Shown here piece after piece: positions 25,709 to 45,029 of a DNA stretch of 64,000 bases. Under the pieces are notes generated by a model. The model ran no database searches and was not told the origin of the DNA. It saw nothing but the letters and a program-made list of their open reading frames with translations. The DNA is from a virus: positions 117,279 through 181,278 of IMG/VR virus record IMGVR_UViG_3300032668_000004; one strand, given 5' to 3'. The stretch's first letter is position 1. Each line of letters starts with the position of its first letter. The translations under genes were made by a program, and so were the position numbers.

Positions 25709-26797
25709 ATGAAAATTAGCGATATCTATGAAAGTACGACCTCAGGCGCGATTGCTACTGTCGCACAGCCAATGGCCGGCGCAACACAAAAACGTTCAAC
25801 TGTAGGCAAAGGAGTCTACGCTAATCAAAAGCCCGGGAATCTTCTTACCGGTAAGAAGACCAACAAGAAATTTGCTAATTCCCTTCATGAAGGTAAGATG
25901 AAGGAACTCGCGTCAGATTTAGATTACCTTGACAATCTAAACTTTCAGAAAAAGTACAAGGCTACCAAAGAACAAATTAGAGCAAGATTCAAGATACAAG
26001 AAGCACAATTAGAAGAAGACGATTTGATTCTTGTGCCAGGCCAAGGTCATAGATTGAAGACTGGATTCCATTCATTTGATCCGGATAAAGCAGAACACGA
26101 AGGTGAAACTCTAAAGAACAGTCTCAGAACAATATCACGTAATGCAAAAGAACTATATGACGTATTAGAAAATTGTGATAGTATTCCTGAATGGGTAAGT
26201 GAGAAGGTCGGCCAGATTAAGGGCATGATGACCAATGTTAATAATTACATGGTTAGCAAGAAACAACAATCAGAAGGTGTTATTGCCGCCGGTGGCGTCG
26301 GTGAAAACCAAGAACACTTCGATCATGAGATAAGCATGGCTAAGAGCGAAATGCGTAGCGCTGCTAAAGCCGCAAAAAGAATCTATCAAATGCTAGATGA
26401 GCGTGATGAATTAATGGCATGGCAGCAAAGCTATATCACTTTAGCTAGTGACTATCTAGGTAGCGTAGCTGATAGCATGGAAGAAGAGTTAAGCGAAGGT
26501 AAACAGGGCGGCGAGAAAGAAGTACAAGATTATAAGAAGTGGCGCAAAGACAATCACGACGATCTAGGCACCACTAGAAAAATCATCAGTAGAGAACCTA
26601 GCAAGGGTAGCCCCTGGCAAGATATGGAAGACTTCGGTAAGAAGGTAACTGACGAAGGTGCCAAAGTAGATCGCATGGTTAAGCACATTGCTAAGTCAGA
26701 ACGTGAAGCCGGCAAGCCAGCAAAGAAAGCAACAGATATTGCATGGGCCACGGTCAACAAGCGTGGCTATCTAGATAACAAAAACAAAAAGGGTTAA
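25709..26797 (+). CDS. Putative prohead-core/virion protein with capsid-targeting-like N-terminus
   Basis: A 362-residue, highly charged, helical protein starting MKISDIYESTTSG; IYE before Ser fits the (L/I)xE prohead-protease pattern. Residues 125-260 form long helices (AELYDVLENC... and SEMRSAAKAAKRIYQMLDER) as in scaffold or core proteins. The C-terminus is Lys-rich (KKATDIAWATVNKRGYLDNK). It opens the block of similar proteins downstream of a late-type box. Scaffold or internal head protein is inferred; no enzyme motif is visible. Confidence 0.55.
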   Translation: MKISDIYESTTSGAIATVAQPMAGATQKRSTVGKGVYANQKPGNLLTGKKTNKKFANSLHEGKMKELASDLDYLDNLNFQKKYKATKEQIRARFKIQEAQLEEDDLILVPGQGHRLKTGFHSFDPDKAEHEGETLKNSLRTISRNAKELYDVLENCDSIPEWVSEKVGQIKGMMTNVNNYMVSKKQQSEGVIAAGGVGENQEHFDHEISMAKSEMRSAAKAAKRIYQMLDERDELMAWQQSYITLASDYLGSVADSMEEELSEGKQGGEKEVQDYKKWRKDNHDDLGTTRKIISREPSKGSPWQDMEDFGKKVTDEGAKVDRMVKHIAKSEREAGKPAKKATDIAWATVNKRGYLDNKNKKG

Positions 26798-26801
26798 CTG
26801 C

Positions 26802-28784
26802 TTGTCAAACTCTATTGTAGTGAATACGTTGAATGTCCGCGATGCCTATGATTTGAAAAACAATACCACAGAGGCTAATTGGAAAGAAGACAGAGCTTTA
26901 TTTGCTACAGGTAACACTATTATTCAGGAATCTATTATACACAAGTGGATGAGTAGAGACAACGAATTCCGTAAACAGGGACTTACCGAAGGGCTAAGCC
27001 ATTGTAACAATAAAACGTCGATCACAAAACTTTCATTTGTAGACACTGAATCCTTAGGCGATATGTCCACAAGAGTAGCATTTATGGAATCATATCTACT
27101 TAATAATGAGAGTTTACTAGAATCTAATGACACGACTTTATTAACAGCATTTCGTAATTTACCCAAACAAGCTGCGGCCCCAGAAGTAGGAACCTCGTAT
27201 CTGATTATTGGGTTGTATCTTATTAATGACACATTAGGTGTGACGCATCAGCCATGTATTGCCAAATTGTTAGAAATCAACGACGATTCATATGTATTGT
27301 ATATACCTGCTGAAAACAGAACAGTAAAATTGCCTGAAAAAACACTGTCAGATGTCGCGCCTATGGTCACCTTACTGTTTAATAGTATTGTTCAATACGA
27401 TAAATTAAGAACCTTTGTAGTTTTAAAATTCGGCATTAACTTACCAGAATACAACGACATACCCATTAAGGAGAATAAAATGAGTAATAATATGAAAGGT
27501 CTACGTGAAAGTAGTATCATGAAAGGCATCGTAGATGAAGATGGAGCATCTTTTGTCATCTACATTAATGGCAAACCAGCAACTAAATATGTAAATTCCA
27601 AAAAAGCTGAAGCCGCAGTTAGTATGATGAAGTCAAAGTTCCCTGATAAGAAATTTGAGATAAAGCATCAACCTGAAGGTCATGCATCCGATGCAGTTGA
27701 TACACTTTATATCAATGATAAACCTAGTATAAAATATAGAGATCCAGATCAAACATTAGCAGCCATGGAACTTTTAAGAAAAAAGCACCCTAGCAGCAAA
27801 TATGATCTTAAGCCTGAGGTCAGAGAAGCTCAAGCGGATGCTCACCTACTCAAGCGTATAACTGTAAAAAAGCACGGCGGAAATGACGAGAATAGTTGGG
27901 CAGTTTTTATCGACGGTAAACCAGCAGTAACTGGACTTAACAAACGATCAGTACCGCACTATAAGTCATTGCTTCTAAAGAAGCTAAAAGAAAAGCCGAG
28001 CTTAACTGGATCAAGCGAAGTTGAAGAAGCCCGCGGCTCAGGTGTAATGTACATAGTTAAGTCTAAAGACGGCGTCGAGAAGGCATTTAAAAATCTACAC
28101 GCCGCCGAAGATTGGAAAAACTCATACCAACGTAAGGCTCCTAAGGACGATGACGGCACATGGGCATGGGCCTGTCATGACGGCACATGGACAATCGGTC
28201 CTAAGGACGATGACGGCACATGGACAATCGGTGAAAGCCCAGATTATCCTGCAGTTGCTCAGCAACCAGGTGGATGGCGTAAATACCGCACAAAACCAGC
28301 TGGTAAATTGTCAGAGGGTGAAGACACGACTGAAGCAGTTGCTAATGCTATCATACGCCGCATCACTACTCAATATTTGGATGTATTGAGTAAATACGGT
28401 CCAGCCGCAGTGATGGCGGCAGTTGATGAACTTGCAAGTCATTATCATGACTTAGAAGAAATTGGTTCAAGTGATGTTAGTATTTGGACTAAAGAAGTTA
28501 TTAAGGATCTAGAGTCTGGATACTATGATGATCTTAAGGAAGATACTGCATATGCAGGTGGTATGGGTCAAGGTGGAAATGCTGGTCAATCATATCGCAA
28601 GTTTAAACCTAAGGTGGCTGGAACATTCAAAGAAGACTCTGATATGCGATTCGCTGCCGAAAAGACTCCTGCAGTTAATCCATACGGTGGACAAAAAGAT
28701 AGACAGTTTAGAGGTTCTATTAACGAACAACCAAAAAAGGTCATCAAAAAGGAAAGCTCTGTAATGAAGGGACTTCGTCGCTAA
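26802..28784 (+). CDS. Large virion-type protein with an in-frame internal start
   Basis: A 660-residue frame beginning at TTG 26802, 4 bases after the previous stop. Residues 1-226 form one alpha/beta region. At 27480 an ATG with a perfect AAGGAG site begins MSNNMKGLRESSIMKG, so a 434-residue product is probably also made. That part has three related ~35-residue beta-alpha units (FVIYINGKPATKYVNSKKAE; LYINDKPSIKYRDPDQTLAA; WAVFIDGKPAVTGLNKRS). A PKDDDGTW repeat follows, then a helical domain (ITTQYLDVLSKYGPAAVMAA) near residues 515-580. It ends with ESSVMKGLRR, echoing the internal start peptide. Probably a head-core or packaged protein; the function is unknown. Confidence 0.55.
   Translation: MSNSIVVNTLNVRDAYDLKNNTTEANWKEDRALFATGNTIIQESIIHKWMSRDNEFRKQGLTEGLSHCNNKTSITKLSFVDTESLGDMSTRVAFMESYLLNNESLLESNDTTLLTAFRNLPKQAAAPEVGTSYLIIGLYLINDTLGVTHQPCIAKLLEINDDSYVLYIPAENRTVKLPEKTLSDVAPMVTLLFNSIVQYDKLRTFVVLKFGINLPEYNDIPIKENKMSNNMKGLRESSIMKGIVDEDGASFVIYINGKPATKYVNSKKAEAAVSMMKSKFPDKKFEIKHQPEGHASDAVDTLYINDKPSIKYRDPDQTLAAMELLRKKHPSSKYDLKPEVREAQADAHLLKRITVKKHGGNDENSWAVFIDGKPAVTGLNKRSVPHYKSLLLKKLKEKPSLTGSSEVEEARGSGVMYIVKSKDGVEKAFKNLHAAEDWKNSYQRKAPKDDDGTWAWACHDGTWTIGPKDDDGTWTIGESPDYPAVAQQPGGWRKYRTKPAGKLSEGEDTTEAVANAIIRRITTQYLDVLSKYGPAAVMAAVDELASHYHDLEEIGSSDVSIWTKEVIKDLESGYYDDLKEDTAYAGGMGQGGNAGQSYRKFKPKVAGTFKEDSDMRFAAEKTPAVNPYGGQKDRQFRGSINEQPKKVIKKESSVMKGLRR
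27468..27482 (+). promoter_or_regulatory. Internal ribosome-binding site and start codon
   Basis: AAGGAG (27468-27473) lies 6 bases before ATG (27480-27482), in frame with the longer gene. It is a better site than that of the TTG start at 26802. It predicts a nested, shorter protein, as with the lambda C/Nu3 protease-scaffold pair. Confidence 0.6.
28140..28223 (+). repeat. 60-bp tandem partial duplication inside coding sequence
   Basis: The 24 bases from 28140 and from 28200 (starting CCTAAGGACGATGACGG) are identical at a period of exactly 60 bases, with a further GACGGCACATGGACAATCGG copy between and after. It encodes PKDDDGTW twice in frame and looks like a recent slippage duplication. Confidence 0.8.
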
Positions 28785-28788
28785 GATT

Positions 28789-30078
28789 ATGCGAGCCATA
28801 GAGTTTCTAATTGAATATGATAGAAACAAAACCGCACAGACACTAGGTACTGGTCTCATTCCTGCATTTGCTAAGGATATGGGCGCCATTAGTGGTAATA
28901 TGATGGTATACAGGCAATTCGCTAGAGAAGTTCTAGTACCTGGTAATAAGGCTACTGAGGCCGACAAAGCCGACATAATTCAACACATATTGCAGGCTAT
29001 AGAAGAAAAAGATCCAACACCAAATAAAGAATACACTCAGTGGCTTGCTAGAATGTATGCTAAAGGTGGAGTGAAGTTAGAGGACTTAAACAGAGGAAAT
29101 CTACTTGGTATCTACAATTTAGGTAAGAAACGCAGGATGATTAAACCAGAACATGCTGATATTAATCGATTCAAAAACTACAAAGAATTTGAAGATACTA
29201 TGCTGAGTAATTATGATTTAGATCAGATTGAAGGTGCGGATTCTGCAAAAGCTAAAGAAAAGGGTCAGGCTAACACAATATTTGACAATGAACAAGTACG
29301 CATAATTGTTCCTGAGGACGAAGCCGCTGCATGTTACTATGGAAGAGGCACCCGCTGGTGTACTGCTGCAACTAAAGGAACGAACTACTTCAAAAATTAT
29401 AGTAGTCAAGGTAAATTGTATATCTTGATACCAAAACATCCTAAACGCGACGGTGAAAAATACCAAATACATTTTCAAACCGGTTCATTCATGGATGAAG
29501 CCGATTCTCCAGTAAACGTAGAGGAATTAATTACCAAAAGATTTGGAGATTTGTCCTCATTCTTTAGAGAAAATGAACCAGCAATTAAAAACAGCATATT
29601 ATTTGCAGATGACGACGTTCTGACTTCGGTTATTACTAAAATTAGTCAAATAGCTATGGATAAGGCATACGAAGAAATTGCGGAATGGGAACAGAATGAC
29701 GATTATTATTATCGAGACATGAGAGAACTTTATGGCGATGAGGACGGAGATATTGATTGGGACGCAGCATATGCAGCAGGTAACGATTATATGTCTTGGA
29801 ATCCAGATGCTAAAGAATGGGTGGATAATATTGAAAGCATAGTTACACCATCACCGCGTCATCTGAAGGCCTGCACGCAAGAGATGACACAAGAAGGTGA
29901 TTATGTCGGTGTCGGAATAGATGACACACCAAGCATAATATCAGACATGTTGTTAAACCATTTTAGAGGTAGCCGACTACATGACACTGGTATTGCTAAA
30001 TATTTGGTAAAGAACGTTCTTGTACAAAAAAAGAAAGATGGTAGCTGGGACGTAGATTTGATCGAAAGAAACAAATGA
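28789..30078 (+). CDS. WCTA-domain virion protein A with capsid-targeting-like N-terminus
   Basis: A 429-residue protein starting MRAIEFLIEYDRNKT; FLIE followed by Tyr gives an LxE site near residue 9. Residues about 75-130 (YTQWLARMYAKGGVKLEDLN) and 165-245 (IIVPEDEAAACYYGRGTRWCTA) are shared with the proteins at 43643, 32698 and 33682, forming a paralogous family. The Cys/Trp pattern CYYGRGTRWCTA looks like an active or binding site, but I do not know the reaction. The C-terminus is acidic (DDYYYRDMRELYGDEDGDID). Its stop overlaps the ATG of the next gene (ATGA). Capsid packaging is inferred from the tag. Confidence 0.6.
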   Translation: MRAIEFLIEYDRNKTAQTLGTGLIPAFAKDMGAISGNMMVYRQFAREVLVPGNKATEADKADIIQHILQAIEEKDPTPNKEYTQWLARMYAKGGVKLEDLNRGNLLGIYNLGKKRRMIKPEHADINRFKNYKEFEDTMLSNYDLDQIEGADSAKAKEKGQANTIFDNEQVRIIVPEDEAAACYYGRGTRWCTAATKGTNYFKNYSSQGKLYILIPKHPKRDGEKYQIHFQTGSFMDEADSPVNVEELITKRFGDLSSFFRENEPAIKNSILFADDDVLTSVITKISQIAMDKAYEEIAEWEQNDDYYYRDMRELYGDEDGDIDWDAAYAAGNDYMSWNPDAKEWVDNIESIVTPSPRHLKACTQEMTQEGDYVGVGIDDTPSIISDMLLNHFRGSRLHDTGIAKYLVKNVLVQKKKDGSWDVDLIERNK

Positions 30079-31196
30079 GAGCCCGAGAATTCATCTCTGA
30101 AAATGAACCGCTCAACGAGTTAACTGGTTATAAGAAAGATCCAGTGTATTCTCTGTTGCAGAACAGCAGAAATATGGAAGAATTTTTGGATGCCTTAAAA
30201 CTGGCAGGATATCAGCAATACGTATTAGGCTCAGGTTGTTTCGGCACAGCATTCAAGCGTCCCGGCGAAGACAGTATCATCAAGCTTTGGAAAGATGATC
30301 CTGCATATGACACCTATCTTTCTTTTGTGTTACAGAATCAATCTAACCCACATGTTCCAAAGATTATTGGCCGCCCAGTAAAGTTATTGCGCAGATTTAA
30401 TCTAATGCGAATGGAGTTGTTGGATAACAAAAATCTATTCACTTTAGAGAGAAAAAATATTAGATATCAGATACAAGAATATTTAGAGGTATATCCGCGG
30501 CGCCCATACGCAGAAGAAACTACACTTTTTGAAGAATTCCCTCAACTAAAACCAGTTTTGGATTTTATTAGAAGTGCAGCAGGTGGAACCGTTGTAATAG
30601 ATGTAGGTATAAGTAACATACTTTGGAGAAAAGGTGACATTCCTGTTATCACTGATCCTATTGCTGATGTTGAGAAGCTGAGAGAAACCATCAGTACTGG
30701 TCAGGGCGGAGGTTCGGCCGGGATAGGCGGCGGATCGATGGTCGGGGGTCCAACTACATATGAACAAGAGTATGGTCAATTCAAAACCAAAGGACCTCAT
30801 CGTATTACTGCTATGACATATGAGGATTTTTCATCAGAAAATAAGATTACATTGAAACAGTTGTATAGTAAGGGTCTCCCAGATCACGATGAGATGATTT
30901 GGAATTTTGTAGGTGACTCAGACTTTAATGTACCTTTTACAGTTCAAACTATTTCACCAGTTAAACTGGAACTACTATTTAAAAGTCAATATGGCGTAGA
31001 TCATATCGATGAAATTTATGACATGCTAGATTCTGATCAAGAAGATATTGTAGATTCATATAGATCAGATCCTAATTTATCAAATAGTATTATTGTCATG
31101 AACGACGGAATTGTAGTCGACGGGCATCATCGTGCATTAGCAGCGATATTAAATAGGAAACCAATTAAGTACGTGGATGTGAGTCAAGAAGCATAA
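30075..31196 (+). CDS. Protein-kinase-like domain fused to ParB-like domain, capsid-targeting-like N-terminus
   Basis: A 373-residue protein beginning MRAREFISENEPLNE (ISE before Asn). Residues 50-75 read LGSGCFGTAFKRPGEDSIIK, a kinase glycine-rich loop and putative ATP lysine. Near residues 172-197, VIDVGISNILWRKGDIPVIT followed by DP resembles the catalytic-loop Asp...Asn and the metal-binding Asp of eukaryotic-like or small phosphotransferase kinases. A Gly-rich linker (about 213-230) leads to a C-terminal domain ending IIVMNDGIVVDGHHRALAAI, with the DGHHR motif of ParB/Srx-type nucleotide-binding folds. The start overlaps the previous stop. A packaged phosphotransferase acting on host proteins is an attractive but unproven reading. 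Confidence 0.65.
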   Translation: MRAREFISENEPLNELTGYKKDPVYSLLQNSRNMEEFLDALKLAGYQQYVLGSGCFGTAFKRPGEDSIIKLWKDDPAYDTYLSFVLQNQSNPHVPKIIGRPVKLLRRFNLMRMELLDNKNLFTLERKNIRYQIQEYLEVYPRRPYAEETTLFEEFPQLKPVLDFIRSAAGGTVVIDVGISNILWRKGDIPVITDPIADVEKLRETISTGQGGGSAGIGGGSMVGGPTTYEQEYGQFKTKGPHRITAMTYEDFSSENKITLKQLYSKGLPDHDEMIWNFVGDSDFNVPFTVQTISPVKLELLFKSQYGVDHIDEIYDMLDSDQEDIVDSYRSDPNLSNSIIVMNDGIVVDGHHRALAAILNRKPIKYVDVSQEA

Positions 31197-31199
31197 ATA
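31192..31199 (+). promoter_or_regulatory. Late promoter-like box (CATAAATA)
   Basis: CATAAATA overlaps the stop of the kinase-like gene and lies 18 bases before the Dps-like ATG, with a TATAGGA site between. Confidence 0.45.
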
Positions 31200-31217
31200 G
31201 TCTATAGGATTACAAAC

Positions 31218-31661: not shown

Positions 31662-31663
31662 TT

Positions 31664-32692
31664 ATGAGAGTTACAGAATTTCTATCCGAAAATGTATCTA
31701 AACCAATGATTGGTTCAGCTAAAAAACCGGCAAACGAGTTGACTGAATCTGTAGGACATTTCCTATCAGAGATTCTTTCTGAGGCATCTACTGCAATGTC
31801 CGCAGTTAGAAACAGCCCATATGCTGATCAACTCATAAAGACAATTCACAGTAGCTTATCATTGCCTCATAATCAAGAATGGGCTCCGGTAGATTCTATT
31901 AGTTGGACTGATGTTAAGGATTATGCACCTAATTTTGTTCTTATGGCAGGTACTAAAGGAACCGCTGCTGTAAAATGGGCAAGTGGACATTATTATTTGG
32001 TAACTGCGAATAGTGAAGGTATACAGACTGATAGAATTACTAGTATAAACGCAGCAGCTAGCCAAATTAAATCTAATATCGGTAAAATAACTGGATTTTG
32101 GATTAATCCTAAAACGTATCGTGTTCGTGGACCTGGCGCTTATCACAGTGCTGCACATGGATCTGAAACTTCAGTAGATCAACTTCGCACAAAACGCAGA
32201 GAAGCAAAGGCCCTAACTATTCCTAATATGTATGATATAAACCGCGGGTCATCGCATAATAGACAGGTACTATTGGCTAAGTTACGTCCTCTGTTAGGAA
32301 AATATGTTCAACAAGCATTAGCGGACGTTAAAGGAGCCGTTGGTATTTCTATTAAGAATGACGCATTCGATAGAGCCAAGAAAAAGTTACAAGTAGCAAA
32401 GCGTCTACAAGAATTGTACGACACTCTGGAACAAGCAAAGTCAGTACAGGCTTTGCCGCCTGTGCTTAATCAGACGCTAAATTTAGCTATATTGATGGCA
32501 GCAGGTTATTATTATCCTGAAGAAACCGGAAACATTAGTCGCGGCGGTGGTCCCCGCGATCATTATAGATCAGATTCTATTTCTGTTTATTCCGCCGGTC
32601 CAAATAAGGTTATTGCTGATATCATCAACGGGGATACTAAAAAGTTATCAACTGTGATGGCCTTCCTCAAGCAAGAATTGGTGCACGGATAA
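31664..32692 (+). CDS. Unknown tagged virion protein with several prohead-protease-like sites
   Basis: The start is ATG 31664, three bases after the dps stop; it begins MRVTEFLSENVSKP. The first 45 residues contain several LxE sites (LSE, LTE, LSE, LSE before Asn, Ser, Ile and Ala), suggesting stepwise removal of an N-terminal propeptide. Residues about 75-150 look like a beta-rich domain (FVLMAGTKGTAAVKWASGHY), and 220-270 like a helical coiled coil. A Gly/Arg patch (RGGGPRDHYRSD) lies near residue 300. No known catalytic motif was recognised. Confidence 0.55.
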   Translation: MRVTEFLSENVSKPMIGSAKKPANELTESVGHFLSEILSEASTAMSAVRNSPYADQLIKTIHSSLSLPHNQEWAPVDSISWTDVKDYAPNFVLMAGTKGTAAVKWASGHYYLVTANSEGIQTDRITSINAAASQIKSNIGKITGFWINPKTYRVRGPGAYHSAAHGSETSVDQLRTKRREAKALTIPNMYDINRGSSHNRQVLLAKLRPLLGKYVQQALADVKGAVGISIKNDAFDRAKKKLQVAKRLQELYDTLEQAKSVQALPPVLNQTLNLAILMAAGYYYPEETGNISRGGGPRDHYRSDSISVYSAGPNKVIADIINGDTKKLSTVMAFLKQELVHG

Positions 32693-32697
32693 AAATC

Positions 32698-33678
32698 ATG
32701 AAAACTAGAGTAAATCTCACTGAGACTATAGCTGCTAAAATAGCAAATGATCCAAAAACAGAAAAAATGATCGCATTGGCTCTTCGCCATGATCATACCT
32801 TTCCTGCTGCAACAAGGGCGTCGATTGGCCCAAACGCATCTGACCATGACATCGCACTACTTTGGGCTAATATGGTAGACAATGCTTTGGCCAATTCTGA
32901 ATATGGTGATCTATCCAGAGATGGTAAGTTTGATCAGTGGTTGCTTAGACTATATATGAATCACGTTGCTGATTATGAAGATATATCAGGTGAAGGAGTA
33001 CCTGCTCTTGGTCAATGGAAGGCACTTAGTATTCGTAATCTCCTTCGCCCAGAACATCAAGACTTTAATAGATTTCGTTCTTTAGAACAATTATATAATG
33101 TAGTTCGTAGCAGAGAATACAGAGACGCATTGGCCAGAATTAAAGATGCTGAGCGTATTGCAAAGATGAAGCGAGACAAAAAGGAAATCATTTTGATTAA
33201 TGACGACCGCTTTTTTGTCATGGTACCATTGAATTACGGTTCTTGCTATACATTCAACAATGAAGAGGGTGTTCAGGCATCATTCTGTACTGGTAGCAGT
33301 GACGGTGAACGTTGGTTCAACCGATATTCTAAAGACGGTCCGATTGTGAGTATCATCGATAAGAAAAACATGAATGACCCTAAGGGAAAGTGGCAAATGC
33401 ATTCTCAGACTAATCAGCTAGTAGATGCAAACCAAAATAACAGAGGCTATCCGCACCGTAATGATGCTGAATTTGCTGAATTATTTCCGGGATTGATGAA
33501 GCAAATTGTTAGTGCTTTAGAAAAACATTCAGAAGACCTCAAACAAGCCTCTAAGGATATGGGAATTACACACGGTGGGTGGAACATCGCAGAAGAAGTA
33601 GGTCGAATAAAACGTGATTTCCCAACAGCATTTGCATCAGAACCCAAAGAAAATCCTGAACAACCCGAATTGGCTTAA
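32698..33678 (+). CDS. WCTA-family paralogue B, tagged virion protein
   Basis: A 326-residue protein starting MKTRVNLTETIAAK (LTE before Thr). Residues 75-150 parallel the helical region of the 28789 and 43643 proteins (FDQWLLRLYMNHVADYEDIS; RPEHQDFNRFRSLEQL). Residues about 160-250 parallel their Cys domain, but the motif is SFCTGSSDGERWF rather than WCTA, so a key Trp is lost or moved. An Asn-rich stretch follows, then a charged C-terminus. It sits 5 bases after the previous gene and 3 bases before the next. The function is unknown. Confidence 0.55.
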   Translation: MKTRVNLTETIAAKIANDPKTEKMIALALRHDHTFPAATRASIGPNASDHDIALLWANMVDNALANSEYGDLSRDGKFDQWLLRLYMNHVADYEDISGEGVPALGQWKALSIRNLLRPEHQDFNRFRSLEQLYNVVRSREYRDALARIKDAERIAKMKRDKKEIILINDDRFFVMVPLNYGSCYTFNNEEGVQASFCTGSSDGERWFNRYSKDGPIVSIIDKKNMNDPKGKWQMHSQTNQLVDANQNNRGYPHRNDAEFAELFPGLMKQIVSALEKHSEDLKQASKDMGITHGGWNIAEEVGRIKRDFPTAFASEPKENPEQPELA

Positions 33679-33681
33679 TAA

Positions 33682-36328: not shown

Positions 36329-36336
36329 ACTAAATA
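36329..36336 (+). promoter_or_regulatory. Late promoter-like box (ACTAAATA)
   Basis: ACTAAATA in the gap after the terminator, about 55 bases before the ATG at 36392. It is the only candidate promoter seen for the two membrane genes that follow. Confidence 0.35.
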
Positions 36337-36391
36337 CTAATGTGTCATAGTACAGTTGTGCTATGGCATGTTCGTGTTTAAAGAGATAGAG

Positions 36392-36981: not shown

Positions 36982-37031
36982 GATAAGAAAGCTGCTGATA
37001 GTGATAGTTAGTATATTTGGAGATATGTATT

Positions 37032-37481
37032 ATGAAGAAGATCATACTACTTTCTCTGTTTGCATCGTGCTTGAGTAGTTCGGCATTTGCTTCGGAGTTA
37101 GTTCAACAATTTAAAGATCCTATATTTAATGGGGTCAGCTATGGCACGTTTGCTACTTCTACATATCAACAAGAAGAATCAGCTAAACAAACTATAGCTA
37201 CCGCAAAACAAAATTCTATAATAGCTCAACAAAATGCTGCTGCCAGTACTCCAACCGCAAAATTTATAGCTTTGTTCACAAGCCAAGTATATTCTCAATT
37301 GGCTACACAGCTATCAAATAATCTATTCTCTGGAACTAGTTCTTCTAATTCCGGAATGTTTAATTTGTCTGGTGATACAATATCATATGTTAAATCTGGA
37401 ACCAGTGTAACACTTACAGTTGTAGATACAAATGGAAATCAAACTATAGTTACTGTTCCAATAGCAACGTTTGCATTCTGA
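37032..37481 (+). CDS. csgF: CsgF-like curli assembly factor
   Basis: The start is ATG 37032 with GGAG upstream; the frame opens 15 bases earlier at TTG. A signal peptide (residues 1-20, ending SSAFA) precedes a mature protein of about 129 residues. The mature start SELVQQFKDPIFNGVSYGTF followed by Gln/Ala-rich helices matches CsgF, whose N-terminus lines the CsgG pore and couples export to fibre nucleation. The stop overlaps the csgG ATG (TGATG), giving translational coupling. CsgF with CsgG and a curlin-like protein in one operon makes the call secure. Confidence 0.8.
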   Translation: MKKIILLSLFASCLSSSAFASELVQQFKDPIFNGVSYGTFATSTYQQEESAKQTIATAKQNSIIAQQNAAASTPTAKFIALFTSQVYSQLATQLSNNLFSGTSSSNSGMFNLSGDTISYVKSGTSVTLTVVDTNGNQTIVTVPIATFAF

Positions 37482-38302
37482 TGAAGAGAATAATTATAGT
37501 TCCATTTCTTTGTGTATTTCTATCTGGCTGTTTAGGTGGATCTATTCCGGCATTAAACCAGTCTTTTCTTCAAAAAGATTCACCAAAGATAACTCATACA
37601 GCTCAACCGCATATATTTGATAATATTCCAGAATTAGATGGTACACCTATTCCAATTGCGGTATATTCATTTATTGATAAAACTGGTCAAAGAAAACCTT
37701 CTCAAACTGTAAGTTCATTTTCTACCGCAGTAACTCAGGGAGCAGATGCTTACGTTGTAAAAGCACTTTATGAAGCTGGAAATGGGAAATGGTTTAAGCC
37801 AGTTGAAAGAGTAGGATTAGATGATTTAGTAAAAGAGCGCCAACTTATTCGTCAAATGAGAGAGCAAGAACAAGGCGATAAGGCTCAAGCTCTTCCTCCA
37901 CTTTTAGTTGCAGGAGTATTGCTAGAAGGCGCAATTATAGATTATAATTCTTCTATAAAAACTGGAGGAAATGGTGCTAGATATCTTGGTATTGGACCAA
38001 ACACGCAGTATATCCAAGATCAAGTAACAATTAATATGAGATTGGTGTCTGTACAGACTGGAGAAGTACTTACTTCAGTATCTGTAGAAAAGAATCTATT
38101 GTCTACTTCTGAAGGCATTAGCGCATTTACTTTCTTTAATCAGGGAACTAATGCTTTTGAAATAGATTCACAACAAACTAAGAATGAGCCGGAAAATTAT
38201 GCTATTCGATCTGCCATAGAAACAGGTGTTGTTGAATTAATAAAGAGTGGTGAAAAAATAGGGCTATGGCATTATAAAACCACACAGGAGAAACACAAAT
38301 GA
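37481..38302 (+). CDS. csgG: CsgG-like outer-membrane secretion lipoprotein
   Basis: A 273-residue protein, near E. coli CsgG (277). It has a lipoprotein signal peptide with LSGC (lipidated Cys17). Conserved regions are IPIAVYSFIDKTGQRKP, then KALYEAGNGKWFKPVERVGL, LLVAGVLLEGAIIDYNS and RYLGIGPNTQYIQDQVTINM, all typical of the nonameric CsgG channel. It would export curlin across the host outer membrane. It overlaps csgF upstream and the curlin-like gene downstream. DNA composition here is clearly AT-richer than the replication genes. Confidence 0.88.
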   Translation: MKRIIIVPFLCVFLSGCLGGSIPALNQSFLQKDSPKITHTAQPHIFDNIPELDGTPIPIAVYSFIDKTGQRKPSQTVSSFSTAVTQGADAYVVKALYEAGNGKWFKPVERVGLDDLVKERQLIRQMREQEQGDKAQALPPLLVAGVLLEGAIIDYNSSIKTGGNGARYLGIGPNTQYIQDQVTINMRLVSVQTGEVLTSVSVEKNLLSTSEGISAFTFFNQGTNAFEIDSQQTKNEPENYAIRSAIETGVVELIKSGEKIGLWHYKTTQEKHK

Positions 38303-39105
38303 AACTATTAAAAACACTAGCAATAATGGCGATGCTATTTACTACACCAGCATTAGCTCAAACTGCATCGCCAACTGGTCCCGCAACTCCAGCAACTGCG
38401 GCATTACCTGGTGCGCCATCAGCACCATCTATTATAGCAACTTCACCAAATCAAAATAATGCTGATAGTATGTCAACGACAAATGATGTTTATATTAATC
38501 AATCTGGTGATAATGTTAATATTAATATTAAACAAACTGGCCAGACAAATATCTTTGGTACTTTTACAGATCCTGTATATTTGAGAGGAGCTAACCAATC
38601 TATTATTGGTATTCAAACTGGTAATAATAATGAAGCCCTAATCTCAGTTGTATCTGGTACTGCTGGAACAGATAATGCTTCATTATCTCTTCAACAAATT
38701 GGAAATAGCAACTATGCTCTAATTCGTTGTGGAAGTAGTTTAGGCGACGCGAGTTGTACCGGTCTAAACTTTAATGCTAGATTTACAGGTGATAGTAATT
38801 CTCTAAATTATCATGGTGCAGGTGCTAATATTACAACTACCCTTGATATTACTGGTGGAAATAACTCATTAACAATGTCTGCAATTTCACCAAATGCTTC
38901 TCAAACAATCTTAGTATCTGGTGATTACAATACTTTAAATACTACACAAACAGACCTTGGTGGCACATATGGGCACAGTCTATATGTAAATCTAACAGGA
39001 ACTGGAAATGCTATTACTACACAACAATATGGAGCTACTGAAACTGTTATTAATGTGACAAGTGTTGGAAATAATGGTAACATTAACATTAAGACTGGCC
39101 ACTAG
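38299..39105 (+). CDS. Curlin-repeat (CsgA/CsgB-like) secreted protein
   Basis: A 268-residue protein with a signal peptide (residues 1-20, ending ALAQT) and a Pro/Ala-rich spacer. Repeats with Gln/Asn/Gly spacing follow, such as INQSGDNVNINIKQTG, IGIQTGNNNEALISV and LQQIGNSNYALIR. These resemble the amyloid strand-loop-strand repeats of CsgA/CsgB, though less regular. It is the likely export substrate of the CsgG/CsgF pair. Its end overlaps the next gene's signal peptide in another frame. An amyloid made during phage infection could alter host surface, aggregation or superinfection (inference). Confidence 0.75.
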   Translation: MKLLKTLAIMAMLFTTPALAQTASPTGPATPATAALPGAPSAPSIIATSPNQNNADSMSTTNDVYINQSGDNVNINIKQTGQTNIFGTFTDPVYLRGANQSIIGIQTGNNNEALISVVSGTAGTDNASLSLQQIGNSNYALIRCGSSLGDASCTGLNFNARFTGDSNSLNYHGAGANITTTLDITGGNNSLTMSAISPNASQTILVSGDYNTLNTTQTDLGGTYGHSLYVNLTGTGNAITTQQYGATETVINVTSVGNNGNINIKTGH

Positions 39106-40213
39106 TTTTTTTCTTCTGTTAGCTACTCCAGCTTTTGCTAGTATTGGTGCAATAACAGATTTTAAAGGCGGCGGACAAATAAAACGTTCATCTTCTACTA
39201 TACCGGCAAATAAAAGTTCAGGTATAGAGAAGATGGACACCATCATAACTAATAGTCAGGGTAAGTTTGGAATTACATTTAATGATCAGACTAAAGTTAA
39301 CATTACTGAAAATAGTAAATTAGTCATTGATGATTTTGTATATGATGATAATGAGAAATCTAAAGGAAAACTTGGACTTAAAGTAGCTTTAGGAACAGTA
39401 CGATATACCTCCGGAGCAATTGCTCACAACAATCCAAATTCAGTAGATATTAGAACTCCAACTGCCACCATAGCTGTTCGTGGAACAGATTTCCTTATGT
39501 CTGTAGATGAAGTAGGAAGAACTACAGTAATTTTAGTTCCAGAATGCTTTATGAATAATGGTGAGATTAGAATGGATAAAGAATGTGAAACTGGAGCTAT
39601 TGAAGTAGCTACTGCTGCTGGAGTAGTTAAAATGGATAAACCATTCCAGGCTACAGTCGTAGAAACATCTTCTGGTCCCCCAAGCACTCCATCAGTAATT
39701 AGTATGGAAGGAAGATCGGCAGATAATAATATTCAACTTTCAACTCCTTCTCTTGAAGGAGGAGCTAATCTATTAACACAAGCTAGAAAAGATATTAAGA
39801 ATAAAGTAAATCCAGCTGGGGCGGCCGCAGACAATAACCAAGATCCTAATACTGGAACGGATGATTTAAATCAAGTGTTTGCTGCTCTTCAAAGAACTCC
39901 AACTCCGTCAGAATTATTACAAGTATATGAAGAATATAATTCTGATGCTCCATTAAAACAGACTTTATATACAGATATTTCTCCACTTTTGAAAAAACAA
40001 ATTCAAATTGGTTGGGCATATTCTTTATTATCTCAAGCTAAACTAGAAGTTGTTACTGTGGTTTTACCAAAAGCAACTGGTGTAGATATTACAACAATAC
40101 AAGACGGATCTTATGATTATTATAACTTCTCTGAGCAGAAATGGCCAACATCAGGAACCGGTAGACCAAATGGTCATATAACTATAATTCAAACTAATAT
40201 AGCAAATAAATAA
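39074..40213 (+). CDS. FecR-domain periplasmic/secreted protein
   Basis: The start is ATG 39074 (GTG 39062 also possible), giving a signal peptide VTLTLRLATSFFLLLATPAF with cleavage after FAS. Residues about 30-150 form a FecR domain: GKFGITFNDQTKVNITENS, then LGTVRYTSGAI and the hallmark RTPTATIAVRGTDF. In bacteria FecR domains sense or bind at the periplasm or cell surface, and FecR proteins often sit beside CHASE2 cyclases. The C-terminal part contains a Gln/Pro-rich linker and a helical region. The first 30 bases overlap the curlin gene. It probably feeds a signal or anchor to the curli system (inference). Confidence 0.75.
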   Translation: MVTLTLRLATSFFLLLATPAFASIGAITDFKGGGQIKRSSSTIPANKSSGIEKMDTIITNSQGKFGITFNDQTKVNITENSKLVIDDFVYDDNEKSKGKLGLKVALGTVRYTSGAIAHNNPNSVDIRTPTATIAVRGTDFLMSVDEVGRTTVILVPECFMNNGEIRMDKECETGAIEVATAAGVVKMDKPFQATVVETSSGPPSTPSVISMEGRSADNNIQLSTPSLEGGANLLTQARKDIKNKVNPAGAAADNNQDPNTGTDDLNQVFAALQRTPTPSELLQVYEEYNSDAPLKQTLYTDISPLLKKQIQIGWAYSLLSQAKLEVVTVVLPKATGVDITTIQDGSYDYYNFSEQKWPTSGTGRPNGHITIIQTNIANK

Positions 40214-40232
40214 TTAAAACGGGGATTATACT

Positions 40233-42269
40233 ATGAAAAAGATTCTTCTATCGCCTTGGCTTGCGATTATTACTTTTGCTCTATTACTTACTATTAAAAT
40301 ATCCAATCCATTTTTGGTAGATGCAATCAAATTAAAATACTATGATTATCTTATGCGTGGTCCAGCAAAACAGTCTGAACAGATTGTAATTGCAAATATA
40401 TCAGATAAGACTATAGAGAAATATGGACAATATCCTTTTCCAAGAGAAACTTATTCTAAAATAATCAACGATTTGTATTTACATCGTGTTGGTGTAATTG
40501 GAAATACAATAATCTTTTCTGAACCAGATAGATTTAATACAGACAAAAATCTTACTGCTACTTTAAAACAGCATCCAATAATTTTATCTCAGACACTATC
40601 GACGCAATCTAAGCCAAATCAAAATATTCGTAAAACTGGTGTGGCTATAATTGGAGATGGTAAAACTACACAGTTTTTGCCAAATTATCCTTCAGTTCTT
40701 AATAATATTTCAGAATTTCAAGATGCTGCTGTTGGTATTGGTGTAACTTCTACTTTACCGGAATCTGATGGTGTTGTTCGCCGTGTACCTTTATTATCAA
40801 TGTCTCAAGGTGAATACTATCCATCTTTTTCTATGGAAATGTTAAGAGCAATTTCCGGTGATCCATCTTATCAAGCTAAGATTAACGAGACTGGTGTGGA
40901 AGCTTTAAGAATTCCATCATTCAATACTATTAAAACAGATGAGTACTCTAGAGTATTTGTGAACTGGAACTATAAGTTTACTCAATTTGATATTGGAGAC
41001 AAAACTCCAGATTTGCTTAATAAAATTGTAATTCTTGGTGTAACTGCTTCAGGTGTGGCCAATCCAGTAGCTACTCCAGTTGGTGCACAATTTCCACAAG
41101 CAGTTCAAGCTAGTCTTCTTCAAACTCTAATTAATGGAGATACAGTTTCTATTCCAAACTGGGCTGGAATATTGGATTATGCACTTTTAGTAGTATTGGC
41201 TCTCGGAATCATTTTGTTATCTAAAGTAAGATTCTCTGTAGTTTGGATTATAGCTCTTATTGGTGTTTATCTTTACTTCCCCGTTTATATGTTTAATCAT
41301 AATCATATTCTAATAGATGTAACATTTAATGCACTTATTGCAATGATACTTTATTTGCACATTTATACAATCAAGTTTATCTCAGAATTCTTACAGAAGC
41401 AACAAATCAAAAAGCAATTTGGAACTTATCTATCTCCAGCTATGGTTGAAAAATTACAAAAGAATCCAGAACTATTACAACTTGGAGGTGATTCTAGAGA
41501 ACTTTCTATTATGTTTACAGATGTTCGTGGATTTACTACTATTTCTGAACATTACGGCAAAGATGTTCAAGGTCTTACAAAGATCATGAATCGCTATATG
41601 ACTGCGATGACAAAAGCAATTCTAGAGAACAACGGCACCCTCGATAAGTACATAGGTGATGCTCAGATGGCATTTTGGAATGCACCTCTTAGTAATCAAC
41701 AACACGCTAAGGATGCTGTCAAGACGGCGTTTGAGATGATGAAGGCATTAGAGAGATTTAACGATGAGATTACACTGGAAGGAGTCCCGGCTTTTGGAAT
41801 GGGCCTCGGTATTAATACTGATACTGTGGTTGTTGGTAATATGGGTAGCACTCAGCGGTTTGACTATACTTGTCTTGGGGACGGCGTCAATCTTGCATCT
41901 CGCCTCGAAGGTCAATCTAAACCGTACGGGGTCAAAATCATCATCGGACCAAAAACTGCCGAATACGTGAGAGATGAATATCAGGTAGTAGAACTTGATC
42001 TTATTGCAGTCAAAGGAAAAACTGAACCGGCTCGCATCTATACTGTCCTATCTTCATATGATGCATCGGGAGAAAAACAACACTTGAGATTCTTGGATAG
42101 CTATCGTAAGGGTGAATGGGACTCTGCTAGAACATATGCTTCTAATATGAAGAAGTTCTGGAGCGGAGAGCTAAACAAGTACTACACGGAAATGATTGAC
42201 CGTATAGAGGAATATGCTAAGAATCCACCAGTTAACTGGGATGGAGTGTATAGGGCAACTTCAAAGTAA
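40233..42269 (+). CDS. CHASE2-domain class III adenylate/guanylate cyclase
   Basis: A 678-residue membrane sensor. An N-terminal membrane segment (residues 5-27) is followed by an extracytoplasmic CHASE2 domain (about 35-300), three transmembrane helices (about 310-385) and a class III cyclase domain (about 415-620). The cyclase domain has LSIMFTDVRGFTTIS (first metal Asp), DKYIGDAQMAFWN (second metal Asp) and VVVGNMGSTQRFDYTCLGDG, so it looks active. It would make cAMP or cGMP in response to an outside signal. GC content rises sharply within the gene near 41570, at the start of the cyclase domain. Directly after the FecR gene, it completes the apparent curli/FecR/CHASE2 unit. Confidence 0.88.
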   Translation: MKKILLSPWLAIITFALLLTIKISNPFLVDAIKLKYYDYLMRGPAKQSEQIVIANISDKTIEKYGQYPFPRETYSKIINDLYLHRVGVIGNTIIFSEPDRFNTDKNLTATLKQHPIILSQTLSTQSKPNQNIRKTGVAIIGDGKTTQFLPNYPSVLNNISEFQDAAVGIGVTSTLPESDGVVRRVPLLSMSQGEYYPSFSMEMLRAISGDPSYQAKINETGVEALRIPSFNTIKTDEYSRVFVNWNYKFTQFDIGDKTPDLLNKIVILGVTASGVANPVATPVGAQFPQAVQASLLQTLINGDTVSIPNWAGILDYALLVVLALGIILLSKVRFSVVWIIALIGVYLYFPVYMFNHNHILIDVTFNALIAMILYLHIYTIKFISEFLQKQQIKKQFGTYLSPAMVEKLQKNPELLQLGGDSRELSIMFTDVRGFTTISEHYGKDVQGLTKIMNRYMTAMTKAILENNGTLDKYIGDAQMAFWNAPLSNQQHAKDAVKTAFEMMKALERFNDEITLEGVPAFGMGLGINTDTVVVGNMGSTQRFDYTCLGDGVNLASRLEGQSKPYGVKIIIGPKTAEYVRDEYQVVELDLIAVKGKTEPARIYTVLSSYDASGEKQHLRFLDSYRKGEWDSARTYASNMKKFWSGELNKYYTEMIDRIEEYAKNPPVNWDGVYRATSK

Positions 42270-42307
42270 CTTACAATATGTTATATGTTTATAGTAGTGT
42301 TATACAT

Positions 42308-42421
42308 ACTAAATATATATCTCAAGCTCCTTAATAGGTTCTTGTGGGTACCAATATAAGACTTACACAGGTACCAATACACTGGCCTTAAAAGCCAGAT
42401 TAACAAAAGGAAATACAATCT
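42308..42421 (+). promoter_or_regulatory. Late-like box and structured leader of the outer-membrane protein gene
   Basis: ACTAAATA (42308-42315) starts a ~106-base leader. The leader contains two GGTACCAATA copies 29 bases apart and a CTGGC...GCCAG hairpin shortly before the AAAAGGAAA ribosome-binding site. No known riboswitch class was recognised. The region 42270-42421 has no gene. Confidence 0.4.
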
Positions 42422-42982
42422 ATGAATAAGTTATTCTTGATCGCAGCACTTGCGGCGGCTGTTGCTACTCCGGCTCTTGCTGAATCTATCACCGGTGAAG
42501 TTCGTACTATTGATCCGCAACCTGCTAAGATAGCAAACTCAACTGAATATCGTCTAACCTATAGTGAAACTGTTGCCAATATTGCTAATGTCGGCGCCGA
42601 GTTCACCGGGTCTCAACCGTATCATAACGGTACTCTAAACAGCAAGATCGTGCTGCAAGGCGGCCCTGCACTTCCCACAGTTGCAGGATTTACTCCTGCT
42701 GCTTATGGTGAGTATGGCCGTTCACTGAACACTAATAAGGACTTTAACTTCTGGGGATACGGTGCTTCTGTTTCGCATGAAGTATACGGCCCGGTATCAG
42801 TAAACGTTGGTTATCGTCATCGTCAAGGACCTAACACTCCTACCTTTACAGAAGATCGTCTTAACGGCGGTGTCGCTTTTGCTATCACCGAAGATAATAT
42901 TGTAGGTGTAAATTACTATCGCACTCGTAGCAATAGTGTCACCTCTGACATCTTGGGTGTTAACTATACTCGCAACTTTTAA
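42422..42982 (+). CDS. Outer-membrane beta-barrel protein
   Basis: A 186-residue protein with a clear signal peptide (FLIAALAAAVATPALA) and a mature part rich in alternating hydrophobic and polar residues (YRLTYSETVANIANVGAEFT; YGPVSVNVGYRHRQG). It ends in Phe (NYTRNF), the C-terminal signature for insertion by the BAM complex. The length fits an eight-stranded barrel. A phage could use it to change host permeability or to block its own receptor after infection. No specific porin family was recognised. Confidence 0.7.
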   Translation: MNKLFLIAALAAAVATPALAESITGEVRTIDPQPAKIANSTEYRLTYSETVANIANVGAEFTGSQPYHNGTLNSKIVLQGGPALPTVAGFTPAAYGEYGRSLNTNKDFNFWGYGASVSHEVYGPVSVNVGYRHRQGPNTPTFTEDRLNGGVAFAITEDNIVGVNYYRTRSNSVTSDILGVNYTRNF

Positions 42983-43003
42983 TAAAACTTGAACTGATTA
43001 AAG

Positions 43004-43033
43004 TAACGGCGGGGAGCAATCTCCGCCGTTATT
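43004..43033 (+). terminator. Hairpin terminator
   Basis: AACGGCGG (43005-43012) pairs with CCGCCGTT (43023-43030), followed by a short T-rich tail. It lies 22 bases after the outer-membrane protein stop. Confidence 0.55.
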
Positions 43034-43042
43034 CATATGTAA

Positions 43043-43050
43043 GATAAATA
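43043..43050 (+). promoter_or_regulatory. Late promoter-like box (GATAAATA)
   Basis: A perfect GATAAATA, but only 5 bases before the ATG at 43056. It is either a promoter for a leaderless or downstream start, or a chance or RBS-linked occurrence. Confidence 0.3.
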
Positions 43051-43055
43051 TATTC

Positions 43056-43631
43056 ATGATCGGAAATGAAATCATTCTAGAGTCTGCTGCTAGTGAGTTA
43101 GCCAAAAAGCTACCATCTTTAGAAAAGCACGACTATAACACTATTGACCAACTAATGCGAAAGATTGCTGCTAAGCATCACATTACTGGTAAGGCCCTGC
43201 ACGACCTTTTTGTGAAGCGATATAGCTCTACACCTGACAGTTGGATCAAAAATAAGTTAGATGAAACCGATGAAGAATTAAATATTCCCGAAGAAGTACA
43301 AAAGTTTGCAGAATGGGCTTCACGTAGAGTTCATCTAAAGAATCCCATTAAAGTAGACCTCAGCTACGACACCGAAGAAGCTCAGCATAATCATCATACT
43401 GGCAGGCACACTGAAGGTGATCCCACGATCTGGGTTTATGCTAAGAACAGAAACCTAGTAGATATTCTTAGAACGGTATTCCATGAAATCGTACACTGTC
43501 GTCAAAGTGAACTAGGTATGATTAAGCCTGGTGACAGCTATCCTGGTAGCCCAATCGAAGCGATGGCCGACCTCTTAGCTGGCAAATACATTAAAATTTA
43601 TGGTGAACGTCATCATTATATATTCCAATAA
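43056..43631 (+). CDS. Zinc metallopeptidase-like virion protein with capsid-targeting-like N-terminus
   Basis: A 191-residue protein starting MIGNEIILESAASE; ILE before Ser is an IxE site. Residues 25-70 are the same domain found at the C-terminus of the nucleotidyltransferase at 22254. Residues 140-175 carry VFHEIVHCRQ (HExxH at 143-147) and, 20 residues on, PIEAMADLLAG with a likely third zinc ligand Glu168, as in gluzincin-type peptidases. Two His-rich residue clusters (HNHHTGRH, ~111-118) precede it. The enzyme could process virion or host proteins. Its stop lies 11 bases before the next tagged gene. Confidence 0.7.
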   Translation: MIGNEIILESAASELAKKLPSLEKHDYNTIDQLMRKIAAKHHITGKALHDLFVKRYSSTPDSWIKNKLDETDEELNIPEEVQKFAEWASRRVHLKNPIKVDLSYDTEEAQHNHHTGRHTEGDPTIWVYAKNRNLVDILRTVFHEIVHCRQSELGMIKPGDSYPGSPIEAMADLLAGKYIKIYGERHHYIFQ

Positions 43632-43642
43632 TTGGTGTATAC

Positions 43643-44656
43643 ATGCGAGCAAATGAATTTCTTATTGAATATGACAGAACAAAGACCGCCGCTACTTTGG
43701 GTGATAAGCTCATTCATGTTGCGTACGAAGATAACACCTATAGGACCTATAGGTCCGGAATAACACCATCTGATATTTTAGAAAAGATAGAGACTAAGGA
43801 TCCAACTCCAAATAAAGAATATACTCAGTGGTTGGCTCGTATGTATGCCAAAGGCGGAGTACCGTTCGAAGACCTAAACAGAATGGATGTTTTAAGTTCA
43901 TATAATATAGGCAAGAAGAGAAGACAAATTCAACCAGAAGACGCTGACATCAACAAATTTAAAACATATAAAGAATTTGAAGATACCATGATGTCAAAGT
44001 ATTCACAATTGAATACTGATCCGAAGGAGGTCAACAAAGGAAAATCTACTCTTTATTTTGAAGATGATAATGTAAGAATAATCATACCAGAAGATGAGGC
44101 AGCAGCATGTTATTATGGTAGAGGCACGCGGTGGTGTACAGCAGCCACAAAGGGTGAAAATTATTTCAATCATTATAATACAAAAGGCAAGATATATATA
44201 ATTCTATTCAAGAAATTTCCGAACAAGTGGCAGTTTCATTTTGAAACTGCCCAGTTTATGGATGAGGCTGATAATGAACTCGGTATAGAACAAGTAAGAT
44301 CAGTCTCGCATTATTTTTCTAAAAAGATATGGAATGATGCGTTTATCAATCGTCCAGCTGAGATGTTAAAATACATAAAAAACCCAACTGAGAAACAAAA
44401 AATAGCAGCAGTTACGGATTCGGCATTGCTAGCTCTAGAATATATAAAAAATCCAAGTAATGCAGTTAAATTAGCAGCAATAACATCCGATCCTGAGATA
44501 ATTCAATACATAGAAAACCCAACTGAACAAATGCAACTAGTTGCAGTTGAGTCTGATGGATACCTTATTCGTTATATAAAAAATCCAAGTAATGCGGTTA
44601 TGATGGCCGCGGTTAAAACTAATCCGATGTCTATGAAACGCTACATATATAGATAA
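43643..44656 (+). CDS. WCTA-family paralogue C with helical repeats (frameshifted C-terminus)
   Basis: A 337-residue frame starting MRANEFLIEYDRTKTAATLG, nearly the same as the 28789 protein (LIE before Tyr). Residues about 55-125 and 135-225 are the shared helical and Cys domains (PEDEAAACYYGRGTRWCTAA). Residues 245-335 are ~22-residue helical repeats (EYIKNPSNAVKLAAITSDPE), like those in the 33682 protein. The frame stops at 44654 directly after an AT dinucleotide run, but repeat-coding sequence continues in another frame to 45029, so the product may be truncated by a slip in that run. Confidence 0.65.
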   Translation: MRANEFLIEYDRTKTAATLGDKLIHVAYEDNTYRTYRSGITPSDILEKIETKDPTPNKEYTQWLARMYAKGGVPFEDLNRMDVLSSYNIGKKRRQIQPEDADINKFKTYKEFEDTMMSKYSQLNTDPKEVNKGKSTLYFEDDNVRIIIPEDEAAACYYGRGTRWCTAATKGENYFNHYNTKGKIYIILFKKFPNKWQFHFETAQFMDEADNELGIEQVRSVSHYFSKKIWNDAFINRPAEMLKYIKNPTEKQKIAAVTDSALLALEYIKNPSNAVKLAAITSDPEIIQYIENPTEQMQLVAVESDGYLIRYIKNPSNAVMMAAVKTNPMSMKRYIYR

Positions 44657-45029
44657 TCCACCAGAAGAGGTTCAACTGGCTGCGGTCCGAAGAGACATAC
44701 GTGCATTTATATATATAAAAAATCCTACCGAAAAAGTACAATTTGAAACAGTTTCTAAAAATGGATTCCTTATAAGGGATATCACAAATCCTTCAGCCCA
44801 AATACAACTTGCGGCGGTAACTGATGCGGCGTCCGCAATACGATTTATACAAAACCCAACCGAACAAGCACAAATTATTAACTCTGAAACGTACCATATT
44901 CAGAATATAAAAAACCCCACCGAAAAAGTACAATTGGCTGCTGTTCGAAGAGACATGCGTGCATTTGACCTTATAAAAAACCCAACAGACAAAGTTAAAG
45001 CTTTGGTTGCTAAACTAAAAGCAAAGTAA
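44649..45029 (+). pseudogene. Out-of-frame continuation of the helical repeats of the preceding gene
   Basis: Read from ATA 44649 to TAA 45027, this stretch encodes IDNPPEEVQLAAVRRDIRAF and at least four more units (IKNPTEKVQ..., ITNPSAQIQLAAVTDAASA, IQNPTEQAQ...). The ~22-residue period matches the upstream frame. It lacks its own start. A loss of two bases from the AT run (around 44644-44651) would explain the break; a full-length gene would run 43643-45029. Confidence 0.75.

Follow-up and report, generated by a model that had tools for sequence, protein, structure and literature searches.

Introduction

The targeting peptide of bacteriophage T4 is familiar from a handful of small internal proteins. 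Here we describe a similar N-terminal motif, MRxxEF(L/I)xE, carried by several genes in a 64,000-nucleotide stretch of DNA from a large T4-related phage (the window; bases 117279-181278 of the 181,278-base virus record IMGVR_UViG_3300032668_000004), and we compare it with the T4 peptide and follow it through environmental relatives. The motif is called the tag below. Genes are named by window coordinate, "own" refers to this phage, L-numbers are loci fetched for comparison (L002 and L089 hold own-record DNA outside the window), and a caret marks a predicted cut position.

The T4 internal proteins IPI, IPII and IPIII carry a short N-terminal [E][F][I/L]xE peptide, and gp21 cleaves following L/I-x-E (PMC9026906). 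For IPIII the first 10 residues are enough for targeting; mutations at residues 4 and 7 affect targeting, those at residues 8 and 10 affect processing, and an Asp at residue 10 blocks processing whilst leaving targeting intact (PMC9026906). The T4 capsid-targeting sequence has already been proposed as a general route for loading diverse proteins (PMC9026906, PMC3012670), and Alt is a packaged, injected ADP-ribosyltransferase that is cut by gp21 (PMC9026906, PMC5512222). The present tag shares the E, F and (I/L)xE elements with the T4 internal proteins, but it is usually 9 residues long and led by MR, it stands, in the loci compared, on proteins of 32 sequence clusters that include kinase-like, wall-hydrolase, acetyltransferase and ParB/sulfiredoxin (Srx)-like members, and its predicted cut site is also found at internal domain borders.

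Two other groups of proteins invite comparison. Polyvalent proteins are likewise multidomain and predicted to be injected, and one described case joins a ParB-like domain to a lysozyme in a late phage context (Iyer et al. 2017, PMC5512222); gene 33682 of the window unites a domain that we call WC with GH19 and weakly matched ParB/Srx-like (E 0.08) domains in one polypeptide. The part of that account drawn on here describes autoproteolysis by a fused peptidase domain, in contrast to prohead-protease sites at domain borders, and does not list a shared N-terminal tag among the features (PMC5512222). The ejection proteins of SPN3US and phiKZ are also head proteins, cut by a distant relative of gp21, but the motif differs, being A-x-E or S/A-x-E, and in SPN3US eight substrates carry propeptides of 20-254 residues (PMC10052503, PMC9026906); the tag pattern described here has no match in phiKZ. 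The T4 peptide is already known, along with how it is cut and how generally it serves, as are multidomain injected polyvalent proteins; what is new, within our search, is how widely the tag occurs in environmental T4-related phages and that its predicted cut site is retained at internal borders. The literature search found no earlier account of such a tag repertoire, with limited coverage of subscription papers, so that novelty is unproven.

The tag in the window and its record

The translations place MRxxEF(L/I)xE at five gene starts in the window (28789, 30075, 31664, 33682 and 43643). A first-pass annotation had listed these five together with 32698, which does not belong in that list as it starts MKTRVNLTE. 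Searched for as a DNA pattern, the motif gives 5 matches in the window against 0.13 expected from the mean of shuffled sequences, and none of 100 shuffles reaches 5. A somewhat looser DNA pattern applied to the entire record gives 11 matches against 1 in the control; one of these has an in-frame stop and another lies within a GTP cyclohydrolase-like gene (window 55052-55732), leaving nine gene starts, five in the window and four outside it. The latter are L002:17208 and L089:6447, 6827 and 17899, the three in L089 on the minus strand, and all four were absent from the earlier list. A chance origin of the tag is rejected both by these counts in the window and by those in the relatives given below. 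A megablast of 20 kb against phages gave no match. The genes concerned are as follows.

25709-26797, plus strand: divergent tag MKISDIYE^STTSG; relatives have MKINDIYE, MRFNQIVE and MKITDIFE
27480-28784, plus strand: putative variant site at MSNNMKGLRE^SSIMKG, an internal start of open reading frame 26802, from relatives
28789-30078, plus strand: tag MRAIEFLIE^Y and WC domain, from the motif and PHROG matches (phrog_17056, phrog_28193)
30075-31196, plus strand: tag MRAREFISE^N; protein-kinase-like (phrog_15752, E 1.2e-6)
31664-32692, plus strand: tag MRVTEFLSE^N with more (L/I)xE at residues 28, 36 and 40; inside the longer open reading frame 31622
32698-33678, plus strand: variant tag MKTRVNLTE^T and WC domain, from homology
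33682-35952, plus strand: tag MRVTEFIAE^G; fusion of WC domain, GH19 wall hydrolase and a tentative ParB/Srx-like domain
43056-43631, plus strand: tag MIGNEIILE^S; HEIVH motif read by eye, metallopeptidase-like
43643-44656, plus strand: tag MRANEFLIE^Y, WC domain and C-terminal repeats (phrog_17056, E 1e-34)
L002:17208, outside the window: tag MKIQELLNE^S; second kinase-like gene (phrog_15752, E 1.3e-13)

The tags of 25709, 32698 and 43056 are divergent, with 8-9 residues and (I/L)xE at the end. The earlier inclusion of 25709 and 43056 in the family is borne out by their homologs. Relatives of 25709 conserve M-K-I-x-D-I-x-E^(S/T)T-SG (12 shown of the 19 distinct N-termini found), and L136 has a canonical MRAHEFIAE ahead of a TTVSGGIATVAMP stretch resembling that of 25709, whilst relatives of 43056 begin the same protein with MRYTEFIIE^S or MNSTDFISE^T, one of them (L126) having lost the E. 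Gene 32698 is homologous to families with MK...(L/I)xE^AN(V/I)AAK, and its relatives place (L/I)xE identically. The internal start at 27480, also proposed earlier, has moderate support as a variant tag site, as its relatives in L092 and L102 begin MSSIIKGLIDE and MSSIMKGLVTE, ending in GLIDE and GLVTE. Relatives of 31664 begin MRSTE(I/L)FKE. The family phrog_15752, matched by both kinase-like genes, carries a host-takeover kinase annotation.

The tag among environmental relatives

Loci were fetched from IMG/VR with gp23, with four tagged proteins and with alignments of two domains, giving 182 loci and 2.47 Mb once contigs identical to the own phage had been excluded. Among their 2,912 unique ATG starts that have a ribosome-binding site, 92 distinct starts bear the tag, where the internal positions of these proteins predict 1.0. 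The tag prefix is present at 114 starts; 92 of them have Glu as residue 9 and 6 have Asp. With the first 12 residues removed, the 92 proteins fall into 32 single-linkage clusters that have no similarity to one another at E 1e-4. The predicted cargo in relatives includes an acetyltransferase domain (PF00583) and a LysM domain; three tagged genes, L096:13069 and L060:12139 (both minus strand) and L176:8370, are ADP-ribosyltransferase-like by eye only, as is their likeness to Alt, and one ADP-ribosyltransferase-like relative has a sub-threshold match (E 0.0034) to the related Tpt1/KptA family.

Two orthologs that are 67% identical begin MKIKDVLNE^ and MRAFEFITE^, and both then continue GMTFNPVVEK, so that the tags are swapped and the mature start is kept. 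In the WC family, M.{2,10}[LIVMF].E fits 46 of 53 distinct starts, with peptides that vary in length and sequence, and the residues after the E are typically AN(V/I)AAK or YxR/N; this count and the two junction counts below include own-phage copies. A similar expression, narrower by one residue, fits 73 of 440 genes of Pseudomonas phage PA5oct.

Likeness to the T4 peptide

A tag profile was built from 86 distinct tags of the own lineage, with T4 and PA5oct sequences excluded. On this profile T4 ipII and ipIII (both MKTYQEFIAE, NC_000866) score 14.0 bits. When MKTYQEFIAE is aligned to MRAxEF(I/L)xE, the conserved F6, I/L7 and E9 fall on positions 7, 8 and 10 of the T4 peptide; the alignment gives no clear counterpart of T4 residue 4. 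A 10-residue T4 form of the pattern has 3 matches in T4 against 0 in the control, and the 9-residue pattern has 0 against 0. The likeness to a T4-type capsid-targeting peptide, together with a gp21-type protease, was the central proposal of the first-pass annotation, and at the level of sequence the profile, the conserved residues and the gp21 homolog described below agree with it, whereas the comparison with PA5oct virion proteins, also given below, is null overall.

T4 gene 61.1 (NC_000866 18966-19130, minus strand, annotated hypothetical) begins MKTFKEFIKE, scores 13.3 bits on the same profile and has a TTSG stretch resembling that of 25709. Its product is a candidate capsid-targeted protein in T4.

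The prohead protease and the head genes

A prohead protease gene lies 8.2 kb before the window. Its product matches PF03420 (Peptidase S77; E 2.6e-26, 89 bits against a cut-off of 27) and phrog_207 (E 7.8e-57), and it aligns with the solved structure of T4 gp21 (5jbl, E 1.3e-12), including the serine of SRG; by these matches it is a gp21-type (S77) prohead protease. The gene is part of a T4-like head module upstream of the window comprising portal (PF07230), a gp67/68-like protein (a weak assignment, E 0.00085), gp21, a scaffold-like protein and gp23, the last of which matches phrog_138 (E 6.1e-98) and is 66.5% identical to gp23 of PA5oct and relatives. Within the portal gene gp20 (L002:5470-8529, record 102969-106028) there is an intein that carries an HNH motif, recognised by a PF14890 match, HNH_3 being under its cut-off.

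The following counts are raw DNA pattern matches, not confirmed gene starts. The tag pattern has 79 matches against 3 in the control in 20 records behind tagged or related loci plus PA5oct, and is present in 17 of these 21. In 12 contigs selected by gp23 alone it occurs in 8, with 26 matches against 3. Among cultured phages, there are 3 matches against 1 in PA5oct, 7 against 1 in Salicola phage SCTP-2, 1 against 0 in PBECO4 and 3 against 0 in Sinorhizobium phage Phosso. Six phages with no T4-type head (phiKZ, G, SPO1, P1, lambda and N4; 1.12 Mb) have 0 matches against 3 in the control.

Predicted cut sites at internal domain borders

Gene 33682 holds the following features within its coding region.

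34783-34791, plus strand: predicted internal cut LDE^DWK, P1 being residue 370, before the hydrolase module
35479-35487, plus strand: predicted internal cut VNE^YKV, P1 being residue 602, before the C-terminal domain
35488-35949, plus strand: C-terminal domain, tentatively ParB/sulfiredoxin-like by model (AlphaFold2, predicted local distance difference test score (pLDDT) 89.0)

Residues 446-589 match PF00182 (GH19; E 5.1e-13). The best Foldseek matches of the modelled C-terminal domain are to the ParB-like PadC and to sulfiredoxin, and since they are weak (E 0.08-0.09) the assignment is tentative. The WC domain model (pLDDT 87.8) has no meaningful PDB match, the best having an E of 1.7.

In relatives the last domain of 33682 is found either as a separate tagged gene (MRANEFIVE^YKVDN in L102) or as the C-terminal part of longer proteins. 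Anchoring succeeded for 35 of the 38 distinct copies, with 16 lying near the gene start and 19 internal; two of the remaining three are truncated and the other (L141) is tagged MRAVEFITE. The sequence [LIVMF]xE stands exactly at the domain border in 18 of the 19 internal copies and in 13 of the 16 near the gene start, and at any other offset it is found at most 4 times. At this border P3 is hydrophobic (L, I, V or M) and P1 is Glu in 18/19, despite differing upstream sequence. A second module, DWK/GWK or PxWAKKG plus a hydrophobic stretch, precedes wall-hydrolase domains where these are identified. Of its 21 distinct matches, 19 have [LIVM]xE directly before the module and 20 have it there or one residue away, against a background of 1.5% per position; the one clear miss, in L133, probably represents something other than the module, and 4 of the 21 are within 25 residues of a tagged N-terminus.

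The retention of (L/I/V)xE exactly at the internal junctions of fused tagged domains suggests cargo polyproteins that are diced in the head, where one tag would take a fused precursor into the prohead and the protease would free several enzymes for injection. We regard this proposal as evenly poised. For 33682 the junctions lead us to propose a precursor that would be cleaved behind residues 9, 370 and 602, and its second product would begin with a short hydrophobic segment before the wall hydrolase, as if an export or membrane signal were being exposed. Precursors might instead remain whole, the LxE at the border being a relic of fusion or part of the first helix of the domain, and this is a serious contender that we place somewhat short of an even chance. 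A Glu in a first helix could be structural, short T4-type sites turn up by chance at roughly 1.5% of the positions of these proteins, and 33682 carries additional (L/I)xE inside its domains. Against this, P3 varies yet stays hydrophobic and P1 remains Glu at almost every internal copy while the upstream sequence differs, and the unrelated second module behaves alike. If cargo polyproteins are indeed made, the border sites would add the viral polyprotein strategy to the tailed phages.

Interpretation of the tag

It is very probable, in our view, that the tag is a capsid-targeting sequence of the T4-internal-protein type, with cargo that is loaded, trimmed and delivered, and with border sites kept in fusions. 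Freshly made tagged proteins would bind the prohead core via their first residues, a gp21-type protease would cut behind the final Glu of (L/I/V)xE, and the matured proteins would remain with the DNA and, by analogy with T4, enter the next host. We propose that the gain of 8 to 10 residues would make any protein a cargo, which would account for the large number of unrelated proteins that bear the tag. In fusions of tagged genes the single N-terminal tag would stay and (L/I/V)xE sites would persist at domain borders, and the tag plus retained border sites would give one precursor cut into several head cargo proteins. As a portable label the tag would provide a sequence handle for listing injected proteins in the genomes of unculturable phages, and proteins so listed would probably include host-takeover and counter-defence factors.

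Several observations weigh against this explanation. T4 Alt, which is known to be packaged, reaches no more than 0.6 bits on the tag profile, and the divergent tags of the own phage range from -4.6 to 2.1 bits (-4.6 for 25709, 1.0 for 32698), so that the profile misses some cases. The 80 loci around gp23 itself have only 2 tagged genes among 846 called, and the tag is therefore not a general mark of head genes. The co-occurrence with gp21 that the first-pass annotation suggested looking for holds for all 12 of the contigs selected by gp23, but for just 3 of the 20 records picked via tagged or related loci. Portal and full gp23 are present in the same 3 of the 20, one more having a short gp23 fragment; as the other 17 thus lack portal and full gp23 as well, they are probably fragments. 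A search with phrog_207 at E up to 10 found nothing in six records without gp21. One of the 17, the 265-kb record G008, may not be a fragment; it has 5 pattern matches, yet gp21, portal and gp23 are all missing.

The virion evidence from PA5oct is mixed. Its 440 coding genes, taken with bases 233901-236899 left out, include 92 flagged by electrospray ionisation tandem mass spectrometry (ESI-MS/MS). A loose motif fits 12/92 flagged and 37/348 unflagged genes (p 0.31, no enrichment), and the tag profile score shows no overall enrichment between the two groups (p 0.94). Only two PA5oct proteins score above 6 bits, both of them flagged (2/92 vs 0/348, p 0.043). Direct comparison links one tagged family, WC, to a PA5oct homolog; the homolog of 43643, EST35_0205 (MKLFEVFTLYE^D), is flagged, which is weak and indirect support. 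As to timing, TATAAATA, the T4 late-promoter motif, occurs 0 times in the window against 6.4 expected (2 against 1.4 in L002); its absence leaves late timing unsupported and late expression unproven.

Such gaps would suit the idea that the tag addresses proteins to some other place in the cell, be it the replication site, the membrane or a phage compartment, and that the cutting is a side effect or does not take place: packaging and cutting are predictions, the PA5oct flags come without overall enrichment, and gp21 went undetected in some tagged records. We consider this idea improbable, in that the tag has the residues of the capsid-targeting sequence of T4, as scored on a profile made without T4, the cut motif is found at internal borders where an N-terminal address is impossible, and the homologous mature start comes directly after the Glu. 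The junctions, the WC starts and the tag swap between orthologs are together better explained by a cleavage site than by an address alone. Inheritance of the shared N-termini by duplication from one ancestral gene family might be read from 28789, 32698, 33682 and 43643, which are partly homologous across the WC domain, but common descent of whole tagged proteins is already contradicted by the 32 clusters that remain dissimilar beyond the tag and by the different tags on orthologs, and is very unlikely. Least probable of all is a signal in the DNA or mRNA, for example a promoter or a translation enhancer; although the motif is always at the start codon, third codon positions are free to vary among seven own tags and the 20 upstream bases have no obvious common block, which places the likeness at the protein level, and (L/I/V)xE is also found deep within genes at domain borders.

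Other genes of the window and its surroundings

Two genes on the list of the first-pass annotation were dropped. For 16119 (LNE-A) a homolog 66% identical has no tag at its called start, and 47959 (ILE-Y) is the second half of a split DNA polymerase, scoring -1.4 bits, so that its resemblance to the motif is probably chance. No peptidase family was matched by the 43056 protein. One further gene on that list is a possible carrier.

59490-60692, minus strand: GP88 family protein (PF17338, E 1.5e-30) with the N-terminus MDIRRIIDIINE^N

Two homologs of this gene were found, neither with a clear tag. Outside the window, L002:16096-16608, sigma-factor-like (phrog_351, E 6.2e-11), begins MSADLFRTYIDIINE^N, and L002:16624-17205, methyltransferase-like, begins MKIQELFE^S. 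Both starts are possible divergent tags; homologs of the two genes are absent from the locus set.

The split DNA polymerase occupies two open reading frames at window 45365-49203, with a minus-strand gene between them (47005-47904) that has a weak endonuclease-like match. The genes at window 37017-42269 form a run that is unusual in a phage. They encode CsgF (PF10614, E 3.4e-13), CsgG (PF03783, E 6.6e-52), a protein at 38299 with repeated QxGxxN-like stretches (seen by eye, and unmatched in Pfam), a protein with a FecR domain (E 2.1e-11) and a protein with CHASE2 and nucleotidyl-cyclase domains (E 2.7e-37 and 8.5e-20). These matches suggest a curli-type secretion and signalling cassette.

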